Assembly: GCA_030017995.1 (NCBI GenBank)
Contig: JASEGS010000017.1
Span: 1-37,063 of the forward strand
Direction of reading: 5' to 3'
Source: Thermodesulfovibrionales bacterium
GTDB lineage: Bacteria > Nitrospirota > Thermodesulfovibrionia > Thermodesulfovibrionales > Dissulfurispiraceae
Length of the DNA stretch: 37,063 bases
The notes under the pieces were generated by a model. That model worked only from the letters and a program-made list of their open reading frames with translations, did not search any database and was not told where the DNA came from. Positions 12,396-23,839 of this stretch are shown one piece after another. The first letter of the stretch is position 1; every line of letters begins with the position of its first letter. The position numbers and the translations under genes are program-made.

Positions 12396-12692
12396 ATGAA
12401 ACTCGGAGTCCTTATGAGTGATTTCAGAACAGGCTCAGATGTCCTCGACAGGCTAAGCGCAGAGAAACTTGGAATCATCTTCGTAGGAAACGGAATTTAT
12501 CACGCCACAGTAAAGGAAGGGGGTAAAACCTCTCCTATTCTCGAAAAATCAGCCACTTACTATGTGCTGACAGAAGACCTTGAGAGCCGTGGTTTTACAT
12601 CTGCAAATGTGGACAGCCGCATAAAGCCTGTAACATACAATGACATGGTTGATCTGATCTTTAATGAGTACGAAAAATTTATATGGATATAA
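12396..12692 (+). CDS. DsrH/TusB-like sulfur-relay subunit
   Basis: 98 residues, the size of DsrH/TusB. The C-terminal NDMVDLIFNEYEKFIWI pattern matches the ending of DsrH proteins (a DLI/DLV, charged helix, then aromatic end). It has no cysteine, so it can only be a structural part of the hexameric DsrEFH/TusBCD-type complex. It is followed 12 bases later by the DsrE-like gene. AAAGGAGGTG precedes the ATG. DsrH assignment is by fold pattern, size and company. Confidence 0.72.
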   Translation: MKLGVLMSDFRTGSDVLDRLSAEKLGIIFVGNGIYHATVKEGGKTSPILEKSATYYVLTEDLESRGFTSANVDSRIKPVTYNDMVDLIFNEYEKFIWI

Positions 12693-12704
12693 AAGGAGGC
12701 AGTT

Positions 12705-13067
12705 ATGGGTAAATTGACAATAGGCTGCTTCGCTTCCCTTGTGGGTTCAGTATCGCTTGATTTTACAGTAAAACTCGCAGAGGCAGCAGTCAAGAAAGGG
12801 CATAAAGTGGATTTGTGGGTATCAGGAAATGCCACAATGCTCTCCAAAAAAGGCCAGAGGGCATTTAAGGACTATTCCGCTTTACAGAAGACAATAAATG
12901 GATTGCTTGAGACAGGCAATTTTCAGATGACAGCATGTGAGGCATGCGCGGAAGCAAGAGGTTATCACAAAGAGGACACAATGGAAGGCTGTAAAAGGTT
13001 CAGCATGGACTGGTATCTCGCGAGCTGTTTCAGCGCCGATAGGGTGCTTCACATAGGAGGTGATTAA
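12705..13067 (+). CDS. DsrE/TusD-like sulfurtransferase subunit
   Basis: 120 residues. Typical DsrE-family beginning (short strand, helix with KLAEAAVKKGH, then VDLWVSGNA). Cys78 in the segment TACEACAEARGY is at the position of the persulfide-carrying cysteine of DsrE/TusD (Cys78 there), with Cys81, Cys96 and Cys108 also present. It is expected to accept and pass on sulfane sulfur between TusA and DsrC. An AAGGAGG site precedes the ATG; the next gene starts one base after its stop. Confidence 0.78.
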   Translation: MGKLTIGCFASLVGSVSLDFTVKLAEAAVKKGHKVDLWVSGNATMLSKKGQRAFKDYSALQKTINGLLETGNFQMTACEACAEARGYHKEDTMEGCKRFSMDWYLASCFSADRVLHIGGD

Positions 13068-13068
13068 T

Positions 13069-13482
13069 ATGGCTACGAAAAGACTATGTTTTGTTATAAG
13101 GACCCTCCCCTATAAGATTGAAGGTTCAAGACTGGCAATGACCCATGCTATAGCGAGCCAAACAGTTGAGATATACCTTGAAGACGGCGACCTCGTTGAG
13201 GCCTCTGTATGCTTTATTGCAGACGGTGTGCTGAACTGCCTAAAAAATCAGGCTGCAATGAAACATTACGGCATCACAAGCATTGAACAGCACTTAAAAA
13301 ACTCCCTTCTCCTCGATATGAAAGTCATGATCTGCAAGGAAGATCTCGAAAAGTTCGGCATATCAGAAGATACTATTGTAAAAGATGCCGAGGATTTAGG
13401 CGGAGAAACAGTTGCTCAGATAGTTCCGTATAGCGAGATACAGAAGGAGATGGAAGCAGTTGATCATCTCTTGTTCTGTTAG
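13069..13482 (+). CDS. DsrE/DsrF-family sulfur-relay protein
   Basis: 137 residues from ATG 13069, picked because TAGGAGGTG lies just ahead; an in-frame GTG at 13060 would overlap the DsrE-like gene. DsrE/F-like alpha/beta pattern (FVIRTLPYKIEGSRLAMTHAIAS, strand VEIYLEDGDLVEASVCFIADG). Cysteines at 7, 48, 57, 89 and the very last residue (137). It completes a three-subunit set with the DsrH- and DsrE-like proteins. A 50-base gap separates it from tusA. Whether it truly equals DsrF is uncertain. Confidence 0.68.
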   Translation: MATKRLCFVIRTLPYKIEGSRLAMTHAIASQTVEIYLEDGDLVEASVCFIADGVLNCLKNQAAMKHYGITSIEQHLKNSLLLDMKVMICKEDLEKFGISEDTIVKDAEDLGGETVAQIVPYSEIQKEMEAVDHLLFC

Positions 13483-13532
13483 AAAGTAAATGATTATCTC
13501 ACAAACCTATTAACTAACAAGGAGGATAAAAA

Positions 13533-13781
13533 ATGGCATTAAGAGATGAAACTCCAACAGAAGTTCTGGATGTTCTCGGAAGGGTATGCCCATATCCACT
13601 GGTTTTAACGAAAAAGCAGCTTGAAAAGATGGGCAGCGGCACACTCTTGAAGATACTCTGCGATGCGCCTGCCTCAGCAGAGGATTCAATTCCAAGATAT
13701 GCTGACAAGCAGGGGTTTGGATTTGATTCCGTAAAAGTTGAAGACAAGGGATATTGGGAACTTTACATCAAGAAAAGCTAA
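13533..13781 (+). CDS. tusA: TusA/SirA-like sulfur carrier protein
   Basis: 82 residues with the diagnostic CPYP motif (Cys19-Pro22) in LGRVCPYPLVLTKKQL, then the short beta-alpha-beta fold. The cysteine carries persulfide sulfur, here probably to or from the DsrE-like protein next door. ACAAGGAGG precedes the ATG. A bidirectional terminator follows the stop by 19 bases. Confidence 0.92.
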   Translation: MALRDETPTEVLDVLGRVCPYPLVLTKKQLEKMGSGTLLKILCDAPASAEDSIPRYADKQGFGFDSVKVEDKGYWELYIKKS

Positions 13782-13846: not shown

Positions 13847-14032
13847 TTACATCTCAGTTATTGTAATTGCCTCTGAAGGGCATACACCCAAACAACTCTG
13901 GCAGAATACACATTCAGATGTCTGATATGGATCGCTTTTGCCGTCAGCAAGCTGAAAAACCATCTGCGGGCATATATTGATACACTCCTCGCAGCCTGTG
14001 CACTTTGCTGCATCAACTGTAACCATGTACAT
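13847..14032 (-). CDS. Ferredoxin with two [4Fe-4S] clusters
   Basis: 61 residues with two CxxCxxCxxxC sets: Cys11/14/17/21 and Cys41/44/47/51. This is the bacterial 2[4Fe-4S] pattern. It is the last gene of the dsrC-M-K-cytochrome unit, preceded by AAAGGAGGTG, and 50 bases after the cytochrome gene. It may be the soluble electron partner of DsrMK or of DsrAB, which is inference from position. Confidence 0.93.
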   Translation of the reverse strand: MYMVTVDAAKCTGCEECINICPQMVFQLADGKSDPYQTSECVFCQSCLGVCPSEAITITEM

Positions 14033-14082: not shown

Positions 14083-14601
14083 TTATTGAGGGATTATCTT
14101 CCTGATCCCTGCTGCAGAATGACACCTGTTGCAAAACTTTTCAGGTTCAAAATGGCATCCAAGACAACTGGTTATAGGCGCCTTGCCATAGATAATAGCC
14201 TCGTCATGTCTTGTGCGCCATTGTCCAATAGGCTGATGGTCAGGTGTAGGCTGCAACCCCTCTGTCACCTCAAGGGATAACAACTGCTTAATACCTTTCC
14301 CTTCAATTAAAACCTTTTTTGCGCCTACATACTCATGGCACTTATTGCAGAAATTTTCAGGCTCAGAATGACATGGTAAACACCCGCCAACTTTAACCCT
14401 GCCTGCATTAATTTCATCCATGTGCGTGCTTCTCCATTTTGCTACAGGCACATGGTAAGCAGGCATAACATCAACACCCGCTGCTGTCTGGAGCATAGCA
14501 GCGCCTTTGCTGCTGACTGAAGGCTTTTCAGACTTCTGACATGCTGCAGTTGAAATAAGAAACAGGGATAGGATTATCATCATTAATTTGAAATTTTTCA
14601 T
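14083..14601 (-). CDS. Tetrahaem c-type lipoprotein in the DsrMK operon
   Basis: 172 residues from the ATG at 14601, which has AAAGGAGGGG ahead and overlaps the dsrK stop by 4 bases. An N-terminal hydrophobic segment ends in ISTAAC (Cys21), a lipoprotein-like signal, so the protein should be anchored facing the periplasm. Four haem motifs: CLPCH (74-78), CNKCH (85-89), CLGCH (146-150) and CNRCH (157-161). The protein is two copies of one module: His-x-Pro, WR(S/T)xH, then CLxCHxEPExFCNxCH. Classical DsrJ has three haems and a different layout, so this is not a standard DsrJ although it occupies its place. Confidence 0.88.
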   Translation of the reverse strand: MKNFKLMMIILSLFLISTAACQKSEKPSVSSKGAAMLQTAAGVDVMPAYHVPVAKWRSTHMDEINAGRVKVGGCLPCHSEPENFCNKCHEYVGAKKVLIEGKGIKQLLSLEVTEGLQPTPDHQPIGQWRTRHDEAIIYGKAPITSCLGCHFEPEKFCNRCHSAAGIRKIIPQ

Positions 14602-16166
14602 ATCCCCTCCTTTGCTCCAAACACTATAGCTCTGCTTACAAGCTGGTGGATGCCGCCAACCTCCTCCATTGGATACCCATATGTTGGAAACATCTTCGAC
14701 ATCTGTGCCTTGCATATAGCGCATATAAGAGCTAAGAAGTTAACTCCATGGCTGTCTTTAACAACCTTTACTGCCTGCATCCTCGGCATTGCGCCTTTCA
14801 CCCTTATTGGCAGCATGTCATCACCCAATAATCCCTGACCAGCGCCACAGCAAAAAGTCTTTTCCTTTATGGTATTTTCAGGCATGTCAACAAATTTATT
14901 TACGCATGCCTTTATAACAGCCCTCGGTATCTCATACTGACCAGATGCTGTTCCTCCCATCTCCATACCCCTTGCAACCTGGCATGAATCATGGAATGTG
15001 ACTGTAAACTCATCATTTGCAGACTTATCAAGCTTAAGGGCGCCCTTATTTATAAGATCAAGGGTAAATTCACATATATGCTGCGGTATTGAATATTTAG
15101 GATTGAGCCAGTCGAATGGTCCGTTAAGGGTGTTGCTATATGAGCTGAGTACCCTCCACATATGTCCGCACTCGCCTCCGACAACCCTTTTAACTCCGAG
15201 CTCCCTCGATGCGTCCCATATACGTTTATTGATTATCTTCATGTTGTTATAGTTATGGACAAAGAGTCCGAAGTTTCCACCTTCTGATGCATATGTGCTC
15301 ATTGTCCAGCTTATCCCTGCCTGATGGAAAACCTTTGCATAACCATAAAGTGATTCAATGTGAGGGGATGCAAAGAAATCAGCAGAAGGTGTTACAAAGA
15401 GGATTTCCGCCCCTTTCTGATCGATTGGTATTTTTATATCCAACCCTGTCTGTTCCTGCAGATCGGTCTCTACGAATTCTATGGCGTTCCTGACAGCATC
15501 GGGAATCATGCCAAGGTTGTTTCCTATATACTGCGCCTTGTCTACGATCTCGTGCATGTATTTCTGAACAATGCCGATGCTGTTCATTATTTCCCTTGCA
15601 GCCATAGTAATTTCAGCAGTGTCAATTCCATAAGGACAATATACAGAGCATCTCCTGCATTCAGAACACTGGTAAAAGTATGTATACCATAGAGCAAGCA
15701 TCTCTTCGGTGAGGTCTTCCGAATTGGTCAATTTCTTTCCAAGCAGTTTGCCCTGAGGAGTAAAATACCTGCGGTATATTTTCCTCATAAGTTCTGCCCT
15801 CGCAACAGGCATATTATTTGGATCACCGGTTCCGAGATAGTAATGACACTTATTTGTGCAGGCGCCGCATCTGACGCATATGTCCATAAAAAGCCTTACA
15901 GACCTGTATTTCTTCAGCATCTCATCCATCTTCTCAAGGAACTTTTCCTTCCAGTTTGGAATTAGCCCCTCTGTTGGATAACCGAGACGCGCAATCGCAT
16001 CCTTGCCCTTATAAAGCTGAGCTTTATAGCTTAAAGAGGCGTTTTCCTTTATGCAAGGCGTCTCTATTTTTCCTGTAAGCTCAGGAGCCTCATACTTTAT
16101 CTTTTCCCATTTAATAAGGTCTTCAAAGCTGACGGGTTTTGCTTCTAATTTTCCTGTTTCAGCCAT
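14598..16166 (-). CDS. dsrK: DsrK, HdrD-like catalytic subunit of the Dsr membrane complex
   Basis: 522 residues from the ATG at 16166 (GGAGG 6 bases ahead; an earlier ATG at 16193 lies deeper inside dsrM). Two ferredoxin-type sets at Cys97/100/103/107 (CVRCGACTNKC) and Cys167/170/173/177 (CSECRRCSVYC), then a HdrD-type cysteine-rich part with GGECGHMWR, TFHDSCQ, TFCCGAGQG and LICAICKAQM. That C-terminal set matches the unusual [4Fe-4S] site of DsrK/HdrD proposed to reduce the DsrC trisulfide. It overlaps dsrM by 22 bases and the cytochrome gene by 4. Confidence 0.95.
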   Translation of the reverse strand: MAETGKLEAKPVSFEDLIKWEKIKYEAPELTGKIETPCIKENASLSYKAQLYKGKDAIARLGYPTEGLIPNWKEKFLEKMDEMLKKYRSVRLFMDICVRCGACTNKCHYYLGTGDPNNMPVARAELMRKIYRRYFTPQGKLLGKKLTNSEDLTEEMLALWYTYFYQCSECRRCSVYCPYGIDTAEITMAAREIMNSIGIVQKYMHEIVDKAQYIGNNLGMIPDAVRNAIEFVETDLQEQTGLDIKIPIDQKGAEILFVTPSADFFASPHIESLYGYAKVFHQAGISWTMSTYASEGGNFGLFVHNYNNMKIINKRIWDASRELGVKRVVGGECGHMWRVLSSYSNTLNGPFDWLNPKYSIPQHICEFTLDLINKGALKLDKSANDEFTVTFHDSCQVARGMEMGGTASGQYEIPRAVIKACVNKFVDMPENTIKEKTFCCGAGQGLLGDDMLPIRVKGAMPRMQAVKVVKDSHGVNFLALICAICKAQMSKMFPTYGYPMEEVGGIHQLVSRAIVFGAKEGI

Positions 16167-16993
16167 TTCTTCCTCCATTGTTCCTGAGACCACGGTTGGT
16201 AAGGTTCGTTTGTTTTAGAATCAATAGGTCTTGGACCATTAACCATTTTATCCCATGCCTCATCCGCCCATGGATTTAAATGTCTCTTAGTCCTCGGATT
16301 GTTCGCCTGATTTCTGGTTGGCGAGAGAAAATATCCAACTGCGTGAATGAGCTTACTGAATGGGAAGTAAATAAGCAATGCCATGACCGAGATAAAGTGA
16401 AGAATGAATACAGGGTTCATAGGGGCTTTAGACGGATGCAAAAAGATGAGGCTGAATATATAAGCCTTCACTTCCACAATATCAGGCCTTATCATATACT
16501 TCATTGTAAGACCTGTGGCAGCAATTAAAAATATAATAATAAGGATAGTCAAATCTGCAAATGTGGTTATATGTTTTACCCTCTCATTGGTATATCTCCT
16601 GAAGAAGAGGGCCAATATAGCAAAAAACATAACAATGCCTGCAAAAATACCTAAATCCTGCACAAGCATGACCCATGATGGAATAGGATTAGTGAAATAC
16701 CTTAAGTGCCTAAGAACGACCAAAAAAAATCCTAAGTGGAAAAACCAGCCTGCTGTCCAGAGGGCGCTCTCTGTCTCGCCCTTTGAAAGGCTTTTGAAAA
16801 ACAGCACATCTCCTGCCATTCTCGCTGCAACGCCTGAAACATTAGTTGACTGTGGGGTGGTAGGTATTTTGAGAGGGACAGGCGTTTTTTTTAGGATATA
16901 AATCTTATAAAGGACTCCAGCAGCAAAGATAGCAAATGAAGCATACGCAAGGACAGTTAGTGTAAAACTAAATAAATTCTGTAACACCGCCAT
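16145..16993 (-). CDS. dsrM: DsrM, NarI-like haem b membrane subunit
   Basis: 282 residues with about five or six hydrophobic helices (starting LFSFTLTVLAYASFAIFAAGVLY). His residues in FFHLGFFLVVLRHLRYF and in VFILHFISVMALLIYFPFSKLIH are placed as haem b ligands in NarI-like domains. The C-terminal cytoplasmic tail is basic and Trp-rich. It takes quinol electrons to DsrK. GGAGGCAAG precedes the ATG. It lies 83 bases after dsrC, with a hairpin in between. Confidence 0.93.
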   Translation of the reverse strand: MAVLQNLFSFTLTVLAYASFAIFAAGVLYKIYILKKTPVPLKIPTTPQSTNVSGVAARMAGDVLFFKSLSKGETESALWTAGWFFHLGFFLVVLRHLRYFTNPIPSWVMLVQDLGIFAGIVMFFAILALFFRRYTNERVKHITTFADLTILIIIFLIAATGLTMKYMIRPDIVEVKAYIFSLIFLHPSKAPMNPVFILHFISVMALLIYFPFSKLIHAVGYFLSPTRNQANNPRTKRHLNPWADEAWDKMVNGPRPIDSKTNEPYQPWSQEQWRKKWLKQEN

Positions 16994-17018
16994 CTTGCCT
17001 CCAAATTATCAAATTTAA

Positions 17019-17040
17019 GGGGATCTCATTAAAGATCCCC
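17019..17040 (-). terminator. Hairpin between dsrC and dsrM (partial terminator or mRNA processing site)
   Basis: GGGGATCT (17019-17026) with AGATCCCC (17033-17040), 6-base loop. On the - strand it is followed by TTAAATTT, a weak U-tract. Placed 36 bases after the dsrC stop, it could let dsrC be made in excess over dsrMK. Confidence 0.6.
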
Positions 17041-17076
17041 TGATGGTCAATTTATACTATATAGCGATGCTATGGC

Positions 17077-17412
17077 TTACACGCAGCCGGTAGGCTTTGG
17101 AAGCCCTGCATACCTACATGCCTGCTTTGCCGGCCCGTCAGGGAAAAGTTCATAGAGGTATTTTGTATTACCCTTTTCCGGACCAAGTATCTTTGCAATC
17201 TCTTTGACAAGAATCTTTATCATTGGAGCGATCTGGTATTTCTGATAATAATCCCTCAGGAAATTGATAACCTCCCAATGAGCTTCTGTCAGAGAGAGTC
17301 CGTCATCAGTCGCCATTTTCTCTCCTAATTCCTTTGTCCACTCATCCAGATTTACAAGATAACCGTCTTCATCGATTTCAACTTGTTTACCCTGAAACTC
17401 AACAGTTGCCAT
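17077..17412 (-). CDS. dsrC: DsrC, sulfur-carrier substrate protein
   Basis: 111 residues, the usual length. The flexible C-terminal arm ACRYAGLPKPTGCV holds both redox cysteines, Cys99 (CysB) and Cys110 (CysA, penultimate), which identifies a true DsrC and not a TusE-like protein lacking one of them. GPEKGNTKYLYELFPDGPAKQ is the conserved block before the arm. It accepts sulfite-derived sulfur from DsrAB as a trisulfide that DsrMK reduces. AGAGGAGG precedes the ATG. It opens the - strand dsrC-M-K unit with its own candidate promoter. Confidence 0.97.
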   Translation of the reverse strand: MATVEFQGKQVEIDEDGYLVNLDEWTKELGEKMATDDGLSLTEAHWEVINFLRDYYQKYQIAPMIKILVKEIAKILGPEKGNTKYLYELFPDGPAKQACRYAGLPKPTGCV

Positions 17413-17540: not shown

Positions 17541-18563
17541 TCATTTAATATTCTTATTTGTTAAGATTCCCGCAATATCTCTAACCTTTCTCTTGATTAA
17601 CTCGCCGTCCTTATAGAAATTTATTATCTCTTCGCCATCACTCAAATTTTTTAAATGTCCGATAAAATCTTCACCGCCTATTATACAAAAAAACCAGGCA
17701 ACATACCCCCGAACATAAGGATTTTTGTCAGCGACCATGATCTCCATCTCATCAATCGCAAAATTCACAAGATCTGGCCTTACACTGCCTATTCTGGCCA
17801 TTGCCCATACTATCCCACCCCTGAACATTTCCTCTTCACGGAAAGACCAGAGTATTGGAATGATGTCACCAAATTCATCAGGGTTGCTGCGGATTATTTC
17901 TCCCAACATCTCAGGAGAGCTCCAGCCAATGCCTCCTGATTCCTCACCCATAGACCATAGAAGTCTTCTTATAATATCCCTTATGACCTCTGTCTTTCCG
18001 CTCCTTGAAAACTCGCCTGCAATTATTCCGAGGGCTTCCATTGCTCGCCAGCTTATCACATCATCTTTGTCATAGGTCGACGATATCAAACGCCTGAGAA
18101 TTCCCTTATCCTTATTCGCTGCCCTTACAATCTCGTCATAACGGCTATTCGCAAGTAAATCTTTTAACTGGCTTTTCGAAAGACAAGCGCCTTTTGTTTC
18201 ATTCGCGATGTCCTGTTTCACTTCCATCGGCATGATGCTGCCTGTAAGCTTGACAAATATCAGCTTGCCTCCGCCCTCTCCAGTGCTTTTGGAATAAAGC
18301 CTTGCATGTCTTTTGAGGTCATAGTCCATATCGGTCATAAAATAGTCCGTGTCGGGGCTCATTGAATAAATGTCCCAGTCTCCCTTTGCAAAGGCAAGGG
18401 CTTCCATATAAGCCTCGCCCATATTATGACCTGTAGGGTCGCACACATAGACCGCGCCACAGGCGCACCTGCCGGCGATTATCTCTCCAAGCTCCGCCTT
18501 TATCTTCTCTGGAGCCGTTATATGTTTTCCGCAAAACGGACATTCAGGCGTATATTTATTCAT
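17541..18563 (-). CDS. Zinc-ribbon plus HEAT-repeat protein, DVU0298-like
   Basis: 340 residues from the ATG at 18563 (AAAGGAAAAGAG ahead; an ATG at 18596 adds 11 unlikely residues). The N-terminus has CPFCG and CACG pairs, a zinc-ribbon pattern. Residues about 120-330 are helical repeats of HEAT type, with phrases like VISWRAMEALGIIAG, GGIVWAMARIG and YVRGYVAWFFC. It resembles a family annotated DVU0298, which I recall as conserved in sulfite/sulfate reducers; that recall is not tested here. It sits between dsrC and the CbiA-type gene on the same strand. Function unknown; a scaffold or chaperone role for Dsr proteins is a guess. Confidence 0.65.
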   Translation of the reverse strand: MNKYTPECPFCGKHITAPEKIKAELGEIIAGRCACGAVYVCDPTGHNMGEAYMEALAFAKGDWDIYSMSPDTDYFMTDMDYDLKRHARLYSKSTGEGGGKLIFVKLTGSIMPMEVKQDIANETKGACLSKSQLKDLLANSRYDEIVRAANKDKGILRRLISSTYDKDDVISWRAMEALGIIAGEFSRSGKTEVIRDIIRRLLWSMGEESGGIGWSSPEMLGEIIRSNPDEFGDIIPILWSFREEEMFRGGIVWAMARIGSVRPDLVNFAIDEMEIMVADKNPYVRGYVAWFFCIIGGEDFIGHLKNLSDGEEIINFYKDGELIKRKVRDIAGILTNKNIK

Positions 18564-18769
18564 CTCTTTTCCTTTCCATAACCCGCAAACAGACATTTTT
18601 AATATGGATGGCTGGCGTGGCGAAAAGACTTTAATAGCGATACCTTATGCCGAACCCTCCCGCTATTTAAAGGCATCTTCAGTATCACTTGTCCATTAAA
18701 CATAAAAACAGGCTCTTTAATAATCTCATCGCATTATTAAAGGCTTCGAGACATGCCTGCCATCCATAT

Positions 18770-20164
18770 TTACAGATTATACTCCTTATACTCTTTAGCC
18801 TTTTTTATAAATCCTTCCGCCCATTCAGGAGTGCCGAGGGCGTGGATATGGGTGTAGGCGGCAAGCACATTTTTATAGCATATACCGTCTGCCTTTTCTA
18901 TTATGCCGCAGCCTCTTTTCATCTTAAAAGAAAAATGCATGCCTTCTTTCTTTTCGATATTTACAACAGCGGAATAGTGAAACTCATGACCCCGCAGTTC
19001 CGTTCCAGCAGGATAAAACGGATTCTCCCTTTCTATTTCTACAATTGTGTATCCATGCGCCTGAGGCTTCTTTTTCATCTCAAATACTACGGGGAAAATG
19101 CCGGTCATAGGATATTTTTTATCATCAACGACAATAGAGTCTCCCAAAAACATGAGGCCGCCGCATTCGGCATAAACGGGAAGCCCATTCCCGGCAGCCT
19201 CTCGCACCGCTTTTCTGAAACCCTCATTCTCCGCAAGTCTTATCGCATTCGTCTCGGGGAACCCGCCTCCAATATAAAGACCGTGAATGTCCGGCAGTTC
19301 TTTATCCGTCAATGCATTTATCTCAACAAGCTCCGCGCCGAGTCTTTGCAGTTCCTCAAAATTTTCGGGATAATAAAACTGAAAAGCGGAGTCCCTGATA
19401 ATGCCGATCTTAATATCGTGATGTGTAATAGGTGATTGGTGAAGGGTTATAAATGACTTGCTAACGTCTAACGGCTCAGCAGATTGTGCAATATCAAAAA
19501 TTCGACCGAGGTCGAGATATTTTTTAGCCGCATCTTCCACAAATAATATCGCATTTGCGGTGTCAGGATGCTCTTGATGCGGCGTCAGTCCCATATGGCG
19601 CTCCGGCAGTTCCCCTTCTTTAAACCTCGGTATCGCTCCGAGCACTGGAAGCGCGCAGTATTTCTCTACGGCCTGTCTTATCACAGATTCGTGCCTGCCG
19701 CCGGATACCTGATTCAACACAACCCCTTTAATTAAAACATCCCTGTCCATATTCATACACCCAAAAACCAGAGCCGCGGCAGTCCTCGTCATCTTTGTGC
19801 AGTCAACAATCAGTATCACAGGCGATTTAAGGAGCTTTGCCAGTTCTGCGGTGCTGTAAGAGCCTTCCGCGTCCATGCCGTCATAAAGCCCTCTGTTTCC
19901 CTCGATAACGGCAATATCTCCATTAAAATGAGAAATAAACGAATTCAATATGGTCTCTTTCGATAGAAAAAATGGATCGAGGTTATAGCATGGATTCCCT
20001 GCAGCCGCAGACATCCATCCTGCGTCTATGTAGTCAGGGCCTTTTTTGAAGGGAATAACCTTCAATCCTTTTGCTTTCAGCGCTGCTATCAGGCCGAGAG
20101 AGAGCGTAGTTTTGCCACTTCCGCCCTTTATCCCTGCGATGATCAGTCGAGGAAATTCGTTCAT
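18770..20164 (-). CDS. cbiA: CbiA/DsrN-type cobyrinate or siroheme a,c-diamide synthase
   Basis: 464 residues. Synthetase part: P-loop GIKGGSGKTT (11-20), KKGPDYIDAGW, and EGNRGLYDGMD. GATase part: YIGGGFPE and the nucleophile elbow VYAECGGLMFLG (Cys334), then the C-terminal RGHEFHYS and YTHIHALGTPEWA. It amidates two side chains of a tetrapyrrole with glutamine. In the cobalamin operon of this window there is no other cbiA, but this gene lies among dsr genes, as the siroheme amidase dsrN does in sulfur bacteria. A short insert at the synthetase/GATase boundary (about residues 238-250) is repeat-encoded. Confidence 0.92.
   Translation of the reverse strand: MNEFPRLIIAGIKGGSGKTTLSLGLIAALKAKGLKVIPFKKGPDYIDAGWMSAAAGNPCYNLDPFFLSKETILNSFISHFNGDIAVIEGNRGLYDGMDAEGSYSTAELAKLLKSPVILIVDCTKMTRTAAALVFGCMNMDRDVLIKGVVLNQVSGGRHESVIRQAVEKYCALPVLGAIPRFKEGELPERHMGLTPHQEHPDTANAILFVEDAAKKYLDLGRIFDIAQSAEPLDVSKSFITLHQSPITHHDIKIGIIRDSAFQFYYPENFEELQRLGAELVEINALTDKELPDIHGLYIGGGFPETNAIRLAENEGFRKAVREAAGNGLPVYAECGGLMFLGDSIVVDDKKYPMTGIFPVVFEMKKKPQAHGYTIVEIERENPFYPAGTELRGHEFHYSAVVNIEKKEGMHFSFKMKRGCGIIEKADGICYKNVLAAYTHIHALGTPEWAEGFIKKAKEYKEYNL
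19419..19450 (-). repeat. Heptamer tract in cbiA
   Basis: On the - strand, units TTCACCA, ATCACCT, ATTACAC, ATCAC (period 7), read as TLHQSPITHH between the two domains of CbiA. The unit resembles the TTCACTA family in cbiM. Confidence 0.75.
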
Positions 20165-21242: not shown

Positions 21243-21461
21243 TTACTCTTTCGGGGGTATCTCTACAAAGCTTCCGCCGAAGTAGGTATAAATGAGCTTG
21301 CCCTCATCAACGAGGTCTTTCAGAGCCTCTTTTACCTCATCGCGACTGATGCCGCAGTCAGCGGAAATCTGCTTCTGAATATCGCTGGACTTGAGCTTCT
21401 TTTTGCCAATAGACTTCTCGACCAGCTCGTAAATCTTCTGTGCTACTTCTGCCTTTTCCAT
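21243..21461 (-). CDS. dsrD: DsrD, winged-helix activator of DsrAB
   Basis: 72 residues, typical size. Winged-helix pattern with SSDIQKQI, then the conserved LIYTYFGGSFVEIP ending. DsrD is known to stimulate sulfite reduction by DsrAB and is found mainly in the reductive pathway, so it argues that this cluster works in the sulfite-reducing direction. It is the last gene of dsrA-dsrB-dsrD, 86 bases after dsrB, across a spacer that contains repeat units. Confidence 0.96.
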   Translation of the reverse strand: MEKAEVAQKIYELVEKSIGKKKLKSSDIQKQISADCGISRDEVKEALKDLVDEGKLIYTYFGGSFVEIPPKE

Positions 21462-21547: not shown

Positions 21548-22621
21548 TTACCACTTAAATGTTGCTGCTGTCCTAAAGGTCTCTCTGGCGATGGTAAAGT
21601 CATCAATGTGCTGGAACGTAAACGGCAGACCGGTAACCTTAAAGAACTTTTCCCAGCCGATTCTCTCTATCCATTCACCAACCCTTTCGTGCTTCTTAGC
21701 GTCGGCGAGATAAGCATCAAGTATCTTTTTTACAACAGTGACAACTTCAGGCCATCTCGGAGGATTATTCTTAATGAATGGAACTGCGAGCTTGGAGAAT
21801 TTCGGATTTGACCTGAGATTTCCTACCTTGCCGCCAACGACAATTGCCACACCGTCATTCTCCGGGTCATGGATTTCCATCGGAGGACATACAGTAAAGC
21901 AGTTTCCACAGTACATACATTTGTCGGCATTGACCTTTACGCTCTTCTTTGCCGGATCAGGGCTGATCGCGCCTGTGGGACATGCTGCGATGGTTGACGG
22001 AACTTCGCACATATTCTTAACCTTGTCATGATCAACAACAACAGGAACTTTCCTGTGAATTGCAACAACTGCAATGTCAGAACAGTGAACTGCACCGCAC
22101 ATGTTAACGCAGCAAGCAACCGCAAGCCTTACCTTATTCGGCGTCTCTTTTGTAGTGAAGTAATCTGCAAATTCATCCATCAGAACCTTAACGAGACCTG
22201 ACGCATCTGTACATGCAGAATGGCAATGAACCCATCCCTGTGTATGGACAATGTTACTTATCCTGCTGCCGATACCACCCATCATGTATTTTTTTGCCTT
22301 CAATTCGTTCTGAAGAGGAGTAAGGTTCTTTTCGTCTGAAACAAGGAACTCCACATTATTTCTTGTAGTAAACCTTATATAACCTCCGCAGTACTTTTCC
22401 GCCATATCGGCCATATCCCTTATGGTGTCTGTGCTGAGAAGCCTTGGCGATGCAACCCTTACAGACCAAATCTTATCTCCGCTGTTTGCTACATGGACCA
22501 TTACGCCGGCGTTTAAAACCTCATGATATTTCCAATCGCCGTAATTTTTCTGAATGACCGGCGGCAAGAAATCTTTATAATGGGGTGGGCCTATGTCTGT
22601 TCTTCTCTGTGGTGCTGACAT
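21548..22621 (-). CDS. dsrB: DsrB, dissimilatory sulfite reductase beta subunit
   Basis: 357 residues. Siroheme/[4Fe-4S] region with Cys133, Cys137 (HTQGWVHCHSACTDASG) and Cys170-Cys171-Cys175 (ACCVNMC); ferredoxin domain with Cys205, Cys214, Cys235/238/241/245 (CMYCGNCFTVC). The ending RETFRTAATFKW is typical of DsrB. It forms the alpha2beta2 enzyme with DsrA in the cytoplasm and reduces sulfite, passing sulfur to DsrC. A GGAGG ribosome-binding site lies ahead and the gap to dsrA is 33 bases. No repeat tract interrupts it. Confidence 0.98.
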   Translation of the reverse strand: MSAPQRRTDIGPPHYKDFLPPVIQKNYGDWKYHEVLNAGVMVHVANSGDKIWSVRVASPRLLSTDTIRDMADMAEKYCGGYIRFTTRNNVEFLVSDEKNLTPLQNELKAKKYMMGGIGSRISNIVHTQGWVHCHSACTDASGLVKVLMDEFADYFTTKETPNKVRLAVACCVNMCGAVHCSDIAVVAIHRKVPVVVDHDKVKNMCEVPSTIAACPTGAISPDPAKKSVKVNADKCMYCGNCFTVCPPMEIHDPENDGVAIVVGGKVGNLRSNPKFSKLAVPFIKNNPPRWPEVVTVVKKILDAYLADAKKHERVGEWIERIGWEKFFKVTGLPFTFQHIDDFTIARETFRTAATFKW

Positions 22622-22654: not shown

Positions 22655-23839
22655 TTATTTCTGCAAATCCGCTTCTGTCCAGAAGAAGAATGGATCTCTT
22701 CTCGGCTCTTTTACCTGCTGCGGAACAGGCTCAACTCCTATAAATTCGAGGAATTCTCTCATGCCTTTTCTGATGACAAGTTCGCCTATCCTCTCTCTGT
22801 TCTTACCGTGCTCATCCCAAAACTCCCACATCTTTCTGATGAGGTCTTTCAGTTCATCATACGGCTCTTCCAGTTTCATAAATGGAACGATAACCCATGA
22901 GAGTGTTGCGCCTATAACGAACGGGGCCTTGCTTCCCATGAGGATTGTTGCGCCTTTTTCACCTGTTGGCTTCAATGCCTTTGTCATCTTCGCGATACAG
23001 TGCATACACCTGTTGCAATCAGCATCGTTTATAGTAAGCTTGCTGCCATCGTAACTCATACACTTTGTAGGACACATATTGACAATTTCCTCTGTAATAT
23101 TCATGCCCTTCTTTGCGTAATTGGCAACTTCGCTCTGGTCGACAGCTATCTTTCCCTTCCATGTTCCAATGATGGATAGGTCTGCGCGGGCTATTGATGC
23201 AATACAGTCAACAGCGCAGCCCGCTGTCTTGATCTTAAATTTATAAGGAAATGCAGGCCTGTGCATCTCGTCCTGAAACTCCTGTGTCAGATTGTAATTA
23301 ATATCGAGGGTGTTGATATTTGACCATTCGCACCTTGCGGGTCCAACACAGCAGCTCAGCGTCCTCATTGCAGATCCAGAACCTCCTAAATCCCATCCGC
23401 GTGAGGAAAACTCTGCGAATATCGGTTCAAGGTTTTCGGTGTTTGTCCCTAAGAGAACAAGGTCTCCAGTTGAGCCATGCAGATTGGTAAGACCGCTTCC
23501 GTATTGATCCCAGATGTCGCACATCTCTTTTAGGAACTGGGATGTGTAAAAGAAAGCTGAGGTAGAATTGATTCTTACTGTATGAAAGTTTGCTACATTG
23601 GGAAATTGCTCCCGAAGAGATGAATACCTTCCAATAATTCCGGAACCATAGCCACGCACTCCAACTATGCCTCCATGTTTCCAATAACCACGTTTGTCCC
23701 TATAAGACTTCTCGAGCTGTCCGAGTTCATCAGCAGCCATGTCACTTCTGGCGGCCGCTTTCTTGATCTCTGTTACGAAACTCGGGAACGGACCTTTTTC
23801 CAGTTCGTCCAACAAGGGAGTTTCATACTTCTTTGGCAT
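22655..23839 (-). CDS. dsrA: DsrA, dissimilatory sulfite reductase alpha subunit
   Basis: 394 residues. WKHGGIVGVRGYGSGIIGRY near 53-72, GSGLTNLHGSTGD at about 114-126. Siroheme-cluster cysteines: Cys164-x5-Cys170 (CCVGPARC) and Cys208-x3-Cys212. Ferredoxin domain: Cys256, Cys260, Cys275/278/281. All expected ligands are present. It is the first gene of dsrABD, with a strong GAGGAGG site 7 bases before the ATG. The upstream 160 bases are shared with the divergent smc gene. Confidence 0.98.
   Translation of the reverse strand: MPKKYETPLLDELEKGPFPSFVTEIKKAAARSDMAADELGQLEKSYRDKRGYWKHGGIVGVRGYGSGIIGRYSSLREQFPNVANFHTVRINSTSAFFYTSQFLKEMCDIWDQYGSGLTNLHGSTGDLVLLGTNTENLEPIFAEFSSRGWDLGGSGSAMRTLSCCVGPARCEWSNINTLDINYNLTQEFQDEMHRPAFPYKFKIKTAGCAVDCIASIARADLSIIGTWKGKIAVDQSEVANYAKKGMNITEEIVNMCPTKCMSYDGSKLTINDADCNRCMHCIAKMTKALKPTGEKGATILMGSKAPFVIGATLSWVIVPFMKLEEPYDELKDLIRKMWEFWDEHGKNRERIGELVIRKGMREFLEFIGVEPVPQQVKEPRRDPFFFWTEADLQK

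Follow-up and report, generated by a model that had tools for sequence, protein, structure and literature searches.

The window analysed here, 37,063 nucleotides long, is the whole of contig C8 of a 1.70-Mb draft genome of a Thermodesulfovibrionales bacterium (55 contigs, 97% complete). On the minus strand it carries a dsr cluster in the order dsrA, dsrB, dsrD, dsrN, a DVU0298-family gene, dsrC, dsrM, dsrK, a cytochrome gene and a small ferredoxin gene. The sulfite reductase genes dsrA (22655–23839; TIGR02064) and dsrB (21548–22621; TIGR02066) are followed by dsrD (21243–21461), assigned from its position and its similarity to syntenic homologues, and by dsrN (18770–20164), which encodes a CobB/CbiA-type amidase and was assigned from TIGR00379 and its position. 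Next come the gene for a HEAT-like protein of the DVU0298 family (17541–18596; NF045662) and dsrC (17077–17412; TIGR03342), whose product has both C-terminal cysteines in the sequence ...ACRYAGLPKPTGCV. The 83 bp between dsrC and dsrM (16993–17077) lack dsrT; in JOP-type relatives, a gene of about 190 aa occupies this interval (L039:4833–5399). The cluster ends with a gene for a 2[4Fe-4S] ferredoxin (13847–14032), as do many dsr clusters of the mini-J type described below and of the JOP type alike. Beyond it, on the plus strand (12396–13781), lie divergent DsrH-, DsrE-, DsrE-like and TusA genes recognised with Pfam; this DsrEFH type II-like set (compare PMC13293266) is also conserved next to many of the other clusters.

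The dsrK gene (14598–16193, minus strand) encodes a protein with two 4Fe-4S sites and a CCG domain that scores 575 bits against the DsrK model NF045796, above its cut-off of 400. The product of dsrM (16145–16993, minus strand) is a short form of 282 aa; it falls below its cut-off (165 bits against 300, NF038037), yet it keeps all four NarI-type haem-b histidines (H86, H96, H199 and H217). Compared with JOP-type DsrM, the short form lacks an extra N-terminal helix, several inserts and a C-terminal tail, but it retains the four histidines in 24 of 24 sequences; in JOP-type DsrM, too, every sequence has them. As the first-pass annotation had proposed, dsrM and dsrK are present within the window and dsrO and dsrP are absent from it, and the place of dsrJ, directly after dsrK, is taken by the cytochrome gene.

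This gene (14083–14601, minus strand) begins at an ATG at 14601, sharing 4 bp with the end of dsrK, and it encodes 172 aa with exactly four CxxCH motifs (C74, C85, C146 and C157). The signal sequence and lipobox Cys21 (14539–14601), a cysteine invariant in 19 homologues, indicate that the protein is probably exported and lipid-anchored. In this lipobox the +2 residue is Gln and the –3 residue is Thr, which is not the usual residue; given these two positions, the protein may instead sit in the outer membrane or be held by an ordinary signal anchor. The four motifs are arranged in two tandem modules, the first of which (14311–14463) contains P-x-Y-H-x-P, W-R-x-x-H-M, CLPCH and CNKCH, and the second (14098–14250) D-H-x-P, W-R-x-x-H, CLGCH and CNRCH. 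Over their 60 residues the modules are identical at 21 positions in an ungapped alignment. Their local alignment score is 142, whereas none of 2000 shuffles exceeds 54; with all CxxCH motifs masked, the corresponding values are 84 and 44. Because the alignment beats the shuffles even when masked, we regard the tandem duplication as real, in line with the earlier description of four CxxCH motifs in two copies of one module (H-x-P, W-R-x-x-H, CL-x-CH-x-EPE-x-FCN-x-CH). Downstream of the lipobox, the protein contains no cysteine outside CxxCH. An AlphaFold2 model of moderate confidence (pLDDT 69, pTM 0.48) gave only chance matches to PDB folds, and searches of the PDB by sequence with the cytochrome, DsrK and DsrJ returned no significant match.

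How is this cytochrome related to DsrJ? Relatives of the same family often carry an ordinary C-(T)-M-K-J-O-P cluster at the equivalent place, and from such clusters and others we assembled a comparison set of 14 true DsrJ. Against the curated DsrJ model NF038038, each module gives a weak match, for a total of 43.3 bits where the cut-off is 100 and where a true DsrJ from a relative reaches 179 bits. A profile comparison with hhalign was more informative. Eight modules matched the 14 DsrJ at 98.1% (E 6.4e-14), with the HM-x-x-LN segment and the haem pair aligned. When every CxxCH was masked, the score was 33.2, and 60 column shuffles reached at most 19.1. With 20 diverse homologues of the cytochrome, 71 columns matched DsrJ at 98.3%, or at 80.7% after masking, whereas for two unrelated tetrahaem cytochrome families from the same genomes the masked similarity dropped to 14.6% and 0.5%. 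The masking, the column shuffles and these multihaem controls led us to reject chance likeness through shared CxxCH motifs. Because the masked match holds while the control families lose theirs, we conclude from these profiles that each module is homologous to the DsrJ core. We refer to a cytochrome made of one or more such modules as mini-J.

The relationship has limits. With the DsrJ of DsrMKJOP (Pires 2006 and Grein 2010, as cited in PMC8076601 and PMC9562282), mini-J shares the place directly after dsrK, an HM-x-x-LN-like motif, a CxxCH-x(5-6)-CxxCH-x-Y core and membrane anchoring on the periplasmic side. The third, CW-x-CH haem found in 14 of 14 DsrJ is absent from mini-J, which has two CxxCH per module. 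Also missing are a 21-residue stretch of DsrJ and C52, a cysteine outside CxxCH that is invariant in the 14 DsrJ; mini-J has His-x-Pro in that region. Being the only invariant cysteine outside CxxCH, C52 is likely the haem-ligating cysteine of DsrJ. Thus, mini-J differs from the DsrJ of DsrMKJOP in lacking the CWDCH haem, the CVEP cysteine, the 21-residue stretch and the accompanying DsrO and DsrP. DsrJ has a transmembrane anchor, whereas most mini-J have a lipobox, and in the present genome the core is duplicated to four haems. The view in the first-pass annotation that the cytochrome stands apart from DsrJ was therefore not borne out, since the modules are a DsrJ core minus the third haem and the cysteine, then duplicated. 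Homology to a normal DsrJ, the finding that would have overturned that view, was obtained as far as homology goes, but at 43 bits against 100 the protein is not a normal DsrJ.

The lost cysteine bears on a possible enzymatic role. A Cys-ligated haem has been described for DsrJ, and sulfur chemistry has been proposed for it (PMC9562282, citing Grein 2010). By analogy, mini-J might be a sulfur-handling haem enzyme in periplasmic sulfur oxidation, with TusA and DsrEFH-like proteins processing its product. The DsrEFH-like and TusA genes do adjoin the cluster, and it is the His/Cys haem of DsrJ for which a reaction with sulfur compounds is proposed in PMC9562282. Nevertheless, we consider this role highly improbable, since no cysteine follows the lipobox outside CxxCH and His-x-Pro stands where DsrJ has its cysteine.

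We searched the rest of the genome with the DsrJ and DsrP models. The best match to the DsrJ model elsewhere in this 97%-complete genome is 12 bits, and the best genome-wide match to DsrP is 26 bits against a cut-off of 350. Two NrfD proteins are encoded, one in a Phs/Psr-type operon (C18) and one fused to CBS domains (C2). A complete dsrJOP set, which would have undermined the first-pass annotation, was not found elsewhere in the 55 contigs of the draft. The best DsrO-like candidate seen is the Fe-S protein beside the NrfD–CBS protein, whose DsrO score of 192 (cut-off 200) is exceeded by its TtrB score; the DsrP search yielded no partner with which a DsrO might pair. That locus (L042:5031–7850, minus strand) comprises a tetrahaem cytochrome, the TtrB-like Fe-S protein and the NrfD with its C-terminal CBS pair.

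Could such a locus supply the function of DsrO and DsrP in trans, so that mini-J is simply a DsrJ minus a haem that works with DsrMK and an NrfCD-type module encoded elsewhere? A tetrahaem cytochrome, a TtrB/DsrO-like Fe-S protein and an NrfD–CBS protein do exist together in this genome. Moreover, beyond seven genomes without a DsrP above the cut-off (the present one, G000, with G041, G062, G071, G079, G088 and G095), most genomes with mini-J have either a DsrOhPh–tetrahaem module or a second dsrMKJOP, which could provide OP in trans. However, the C2 NrfD, a CBS-domain fusion, reaches only 32 of the 350 bits required for DsrP, DsrOhPh loci have their own tetrahaem cytochrome, and in cable bacteria these loci were judged independent of DsrMKJOP (PMC13047784). 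Because the seven genomes retain mini-J without a DsrP above the cut-off, the mini-J set appears to be kept without OP, and we regard help in trans as unlikely.

The distribution of mini-J also speaks to its place in the cluster. It occurs in 26 of 396 Nitrospirota genomes, directly after dsrK in 23 and beside or fused to a DsrM-like protein in three; at the 15 Nitrospirota loci measured, the gap from dsrK to mini-J is –4 to +2 bp. The tetrahaem form after dsrK was found in the present genome and in 11 members of a second family, among which are Magnetobacteria-like names, and the remaining Nitrospirota mini-J after dsrK are dihaem. Three of 400 Chloroflexota genomes have mini-J, all just after dsrK and all with a single-helix membrane anchor and no lipobox. 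In one of them (L090:5935–11888), the run dsrAB-C-M-K-miniJ is followed by genes for a Rieske protein, a small cytochrome, a molybdopterin oxidoreductase and NrfC/NrfD-like proteins. Mini-J likewise follows dsrK in Ca. Tariuqbacter and Hydrothermarchaeota; most of the hydrothermarchaeotal proteins carry three additional, appended haems, and the haem count across phyla is 2, 4 or 5. One hydrothermarchaeotal locus has a thioredoxin-like ORF (L095:5509–5865) between dsrK and a five-haem mini-J, and L096–L099 have a similar gap.

A mini-J after dsrK is always accompanied by a short DsrM and by a DsrK outside the DsrJOP-associated clade. In a tree of 44 DsrK sequences, those accompanying DsrJ group together in a single clade (100/100) that contains no mini-J DsrK, and the mini-J or DsrJ label changes once. 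This tree is unrooted, with one long and unreliable outgroup, and is compatible with either direction of change between mini-J and DsrJ. Since a mini-J cluster and a complete dsrMKJOP coexist in four genomes (G032, G336, G388 and G165), we take them to be two distinct complex lineages and not stages of gene loss. DsrK associated with tetrahaem mini-J form a clade (89/93) nested among those associated with dihaem mini-J. In a tree of modules, all 14 second modules fall in one clade (99/96), and first modules group with the single modules of dihaem proteins; the tetrahaem form is therefore best explained by one duplication, and independent duplications in this lineage and in the Magnetobacteria-like family are not needed.

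Where in the membrane complex would mini-J sit? Two relatives (G033 and G250) provide a clue, in that a mini-J module forms the C-terminal part of a DsrM-like protein at loci without dsrK; in a third (G056), an unfused mini-J gene adjoins a similar DsrM-like gene. At L036:7838–8662 and L116:1365–2189, the fusion of the DsrM-like protein with a dihaem mini-J is followed by a protein of 771–774 aa, with one CxxCH near its N-terminus, and then by a ferredoxin. In NarI, the N-terminus and haem bD are on the periplasmic side, and c-type haem maturation requires a periplasmic location. An AlphaFold2 model of the fusion (pLDDT 77, lower in the haem domain) has six membrane helices, and its best solved structural match is NarI. 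In this model, the sixth helix would bring the haem domain to the same side of the membrane as the N-terminus, which in NarI is periplasmic; the haem domain would thus be periplasmic. The fusions and the G056 pair retain the distal haem-b pair H96/H199 but are missing ligands of bP, the proximal haem nearer the cytoplasm (H217 in the numbering of the present DsrM and, in the fusions, also H86); in NarI, the bP ligands are His56 and His205 (PMC5338063). Retention of the bD ligands with loss of the bP ligands where dsrK is absent is the pattern expected if the module exchanges electrons with bD and bP serves only DsrK.

These observations also bear on a rival view, in which mini-J only happens to lie in the operon and, as a free cytochrome of the periplasm or outer membrane, shuttles electrons to or from the cell exterior. 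Its lipoprotein-like signal without Asp at +2, its tetrahaem form and the magnetotactic-type names of Nitrospirota relatives would suit such a shuttle. However, its strict place after dsrK in several phyla, the single-helix anchor of the Chloroflexota proteins in place of a lipobox, the fusion to a DsrM-like protein and the homology to DsrJ, which itself belongs to an inner-membrane complex, make a free shuttle improbable.

We therefore favour, with reasonable though not full confidence, the reading that mini-J serves as periplasmic subunit in a compact DsrMKJ complex lacking DsrO and DsrP, a wire of bis-His haems that would dock on DsrM. The suggestion of the first-pass annotation that the cytochrome is an electron partner for DsrMK is plausible in so far as it occupies the DsrJ place and JOP are missing, whereas its homologous core does not support a partner apart from DsrJ. 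Judging from the motifs, which offer two distal histidines in each module and no cysteine as ligand, all mini-J haems would be bis-His electron carriers. The DsrM fusion suggests a docking site for mini-J on the periplasmic face of DsrM, beside the distal haem b. Electrons might then pass between the periplasmic c-haems, the two b-haems of DsrM, the Fe-S clusters of DsrK and the DsrC trisulfide, a route parallel to menaquinol oxidation at DsrM. With the tandem duplication, the wire would grow to four haems, and a wider range of soluble periplasmic proteins could serve as its partner.

The genome offers a context for such a route. With sat-aprBA-qmoABC on contig C22 and dsrABD in the window, the organism is, by gene content, a Sat-AprBA-QmoABC-DsrABD sulfate reducer, although reverse or disproportionating use would be compatible too. 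Because of this gene content, electrons would likely flow inward, towards the reduction of DsrC. Also encoded is a NiFe hydrogenase of periplasmic type that comes with a cytochrome b, so electrons from hydrogen can enter through quinone. On contig C25, a gene for a NiFe hydrogenase large subunit (L158:1387–3099, plus strand) has TGA at both cysteine positions of the N-terminal L1 motif (RIUGVUTTVH) and keeps Cys in the C-terminal DPCxxC, and SelB is present in the genome (378 bits), which makes two selenocysteines plausible; in known NiFeSe enzymes, selenocysteine lies in the C-terminal motif. Contig C38 carries a second, divergent DsrC/TusE-like gene (L048:748–1113) with 32% identity to the DsrC of the window.

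Several known systems resemble this arrangement. The TmcABCD complex, which is taken to reduce DsrC with periplasmic electrons (PMC10553843), has the same architecture of a tetrahaem cytochrome c, an HdrD-like and a NarI-like subunit. Our proteins differ from it, as the present DsrK scores 189.5 bits with the TmcB model (cut-off 735) against 575 with the Dsr model, the present DsrM scores 34 bits with the TmcC model (cut-off 240) against 165, and the best Pfam match of mini-J to a type II cytochrome c3 (TmcA) is 16.5 to Cytochrom_c3_2 (cut-off 25). With all three cut-offs missed, membership of Tmc was rejected; by analogy, the compact complex may work like Tmc while being built from Dsr parts. 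Cable bacteria have a DsrMKJ whose DsrJ is divergent and, at another locus, a DsrOhPh–tetrahaem module (PMC10926707, PMC13047784). That module likewise places a tetrahaem cytochrome in Dsr-bearing genomes, but its cytochrome accompanies homologues of DsrO and DsrP and belongs to another sequence family, the control at 14.6% masked similarity, on which ground mini-J was excluded from it. Clusters with dsrM and dsrK and without dsrOP are known from archaea, Clostridia, Desulfurellales and others, where they are treated as DsrMK only (PMC10504309); the main text of that survey describes no J-like cytochrome in such clusters, unlike the one present here, and the survey PMC10591310 mentions no cytochromes. 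Within the mainly open-access literature covered, these papers thus describe no subunit of the mini-J kind, and an earlier description elsewhere is possible.

What might the compact complex mean for DsrMKJOP at large? For DsrMKJOP, there is a proposal that quinone cycles between DsrMK and DsrJOP (PMC8076601), and the Cys-ligated haem of DsrJ is unusual. A natural complex with the J core, without OP, the third haem and the cysteine, and locally fused to a DsrM-like protein, separates the functions of DsrJ. On this argument, the J core belongs to DsrM, and electrons can be fed into or drained from DsrMK without the cysteine chemistry. We offer a broader scenario as a tentative one, more doubtful than not: many "DsrMK-only" organisms might hold a widespread and ancient complex of DsrMK with mini-J, in which the DsrJ core would belong to DsrM and not to DsrOP; this complex would carry electrons from the periplasmic cytochrome pool directly to DsrC, bypassing quinone, and the three-haem, Cys-bearing DsrJ would be a later elaboration. 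Genomes listed as having DsrMK only may hide a cytochrome subunit under present model cut-offs, and the recurrence of the arrangement in several phyla suggests what DsrJ connects to.
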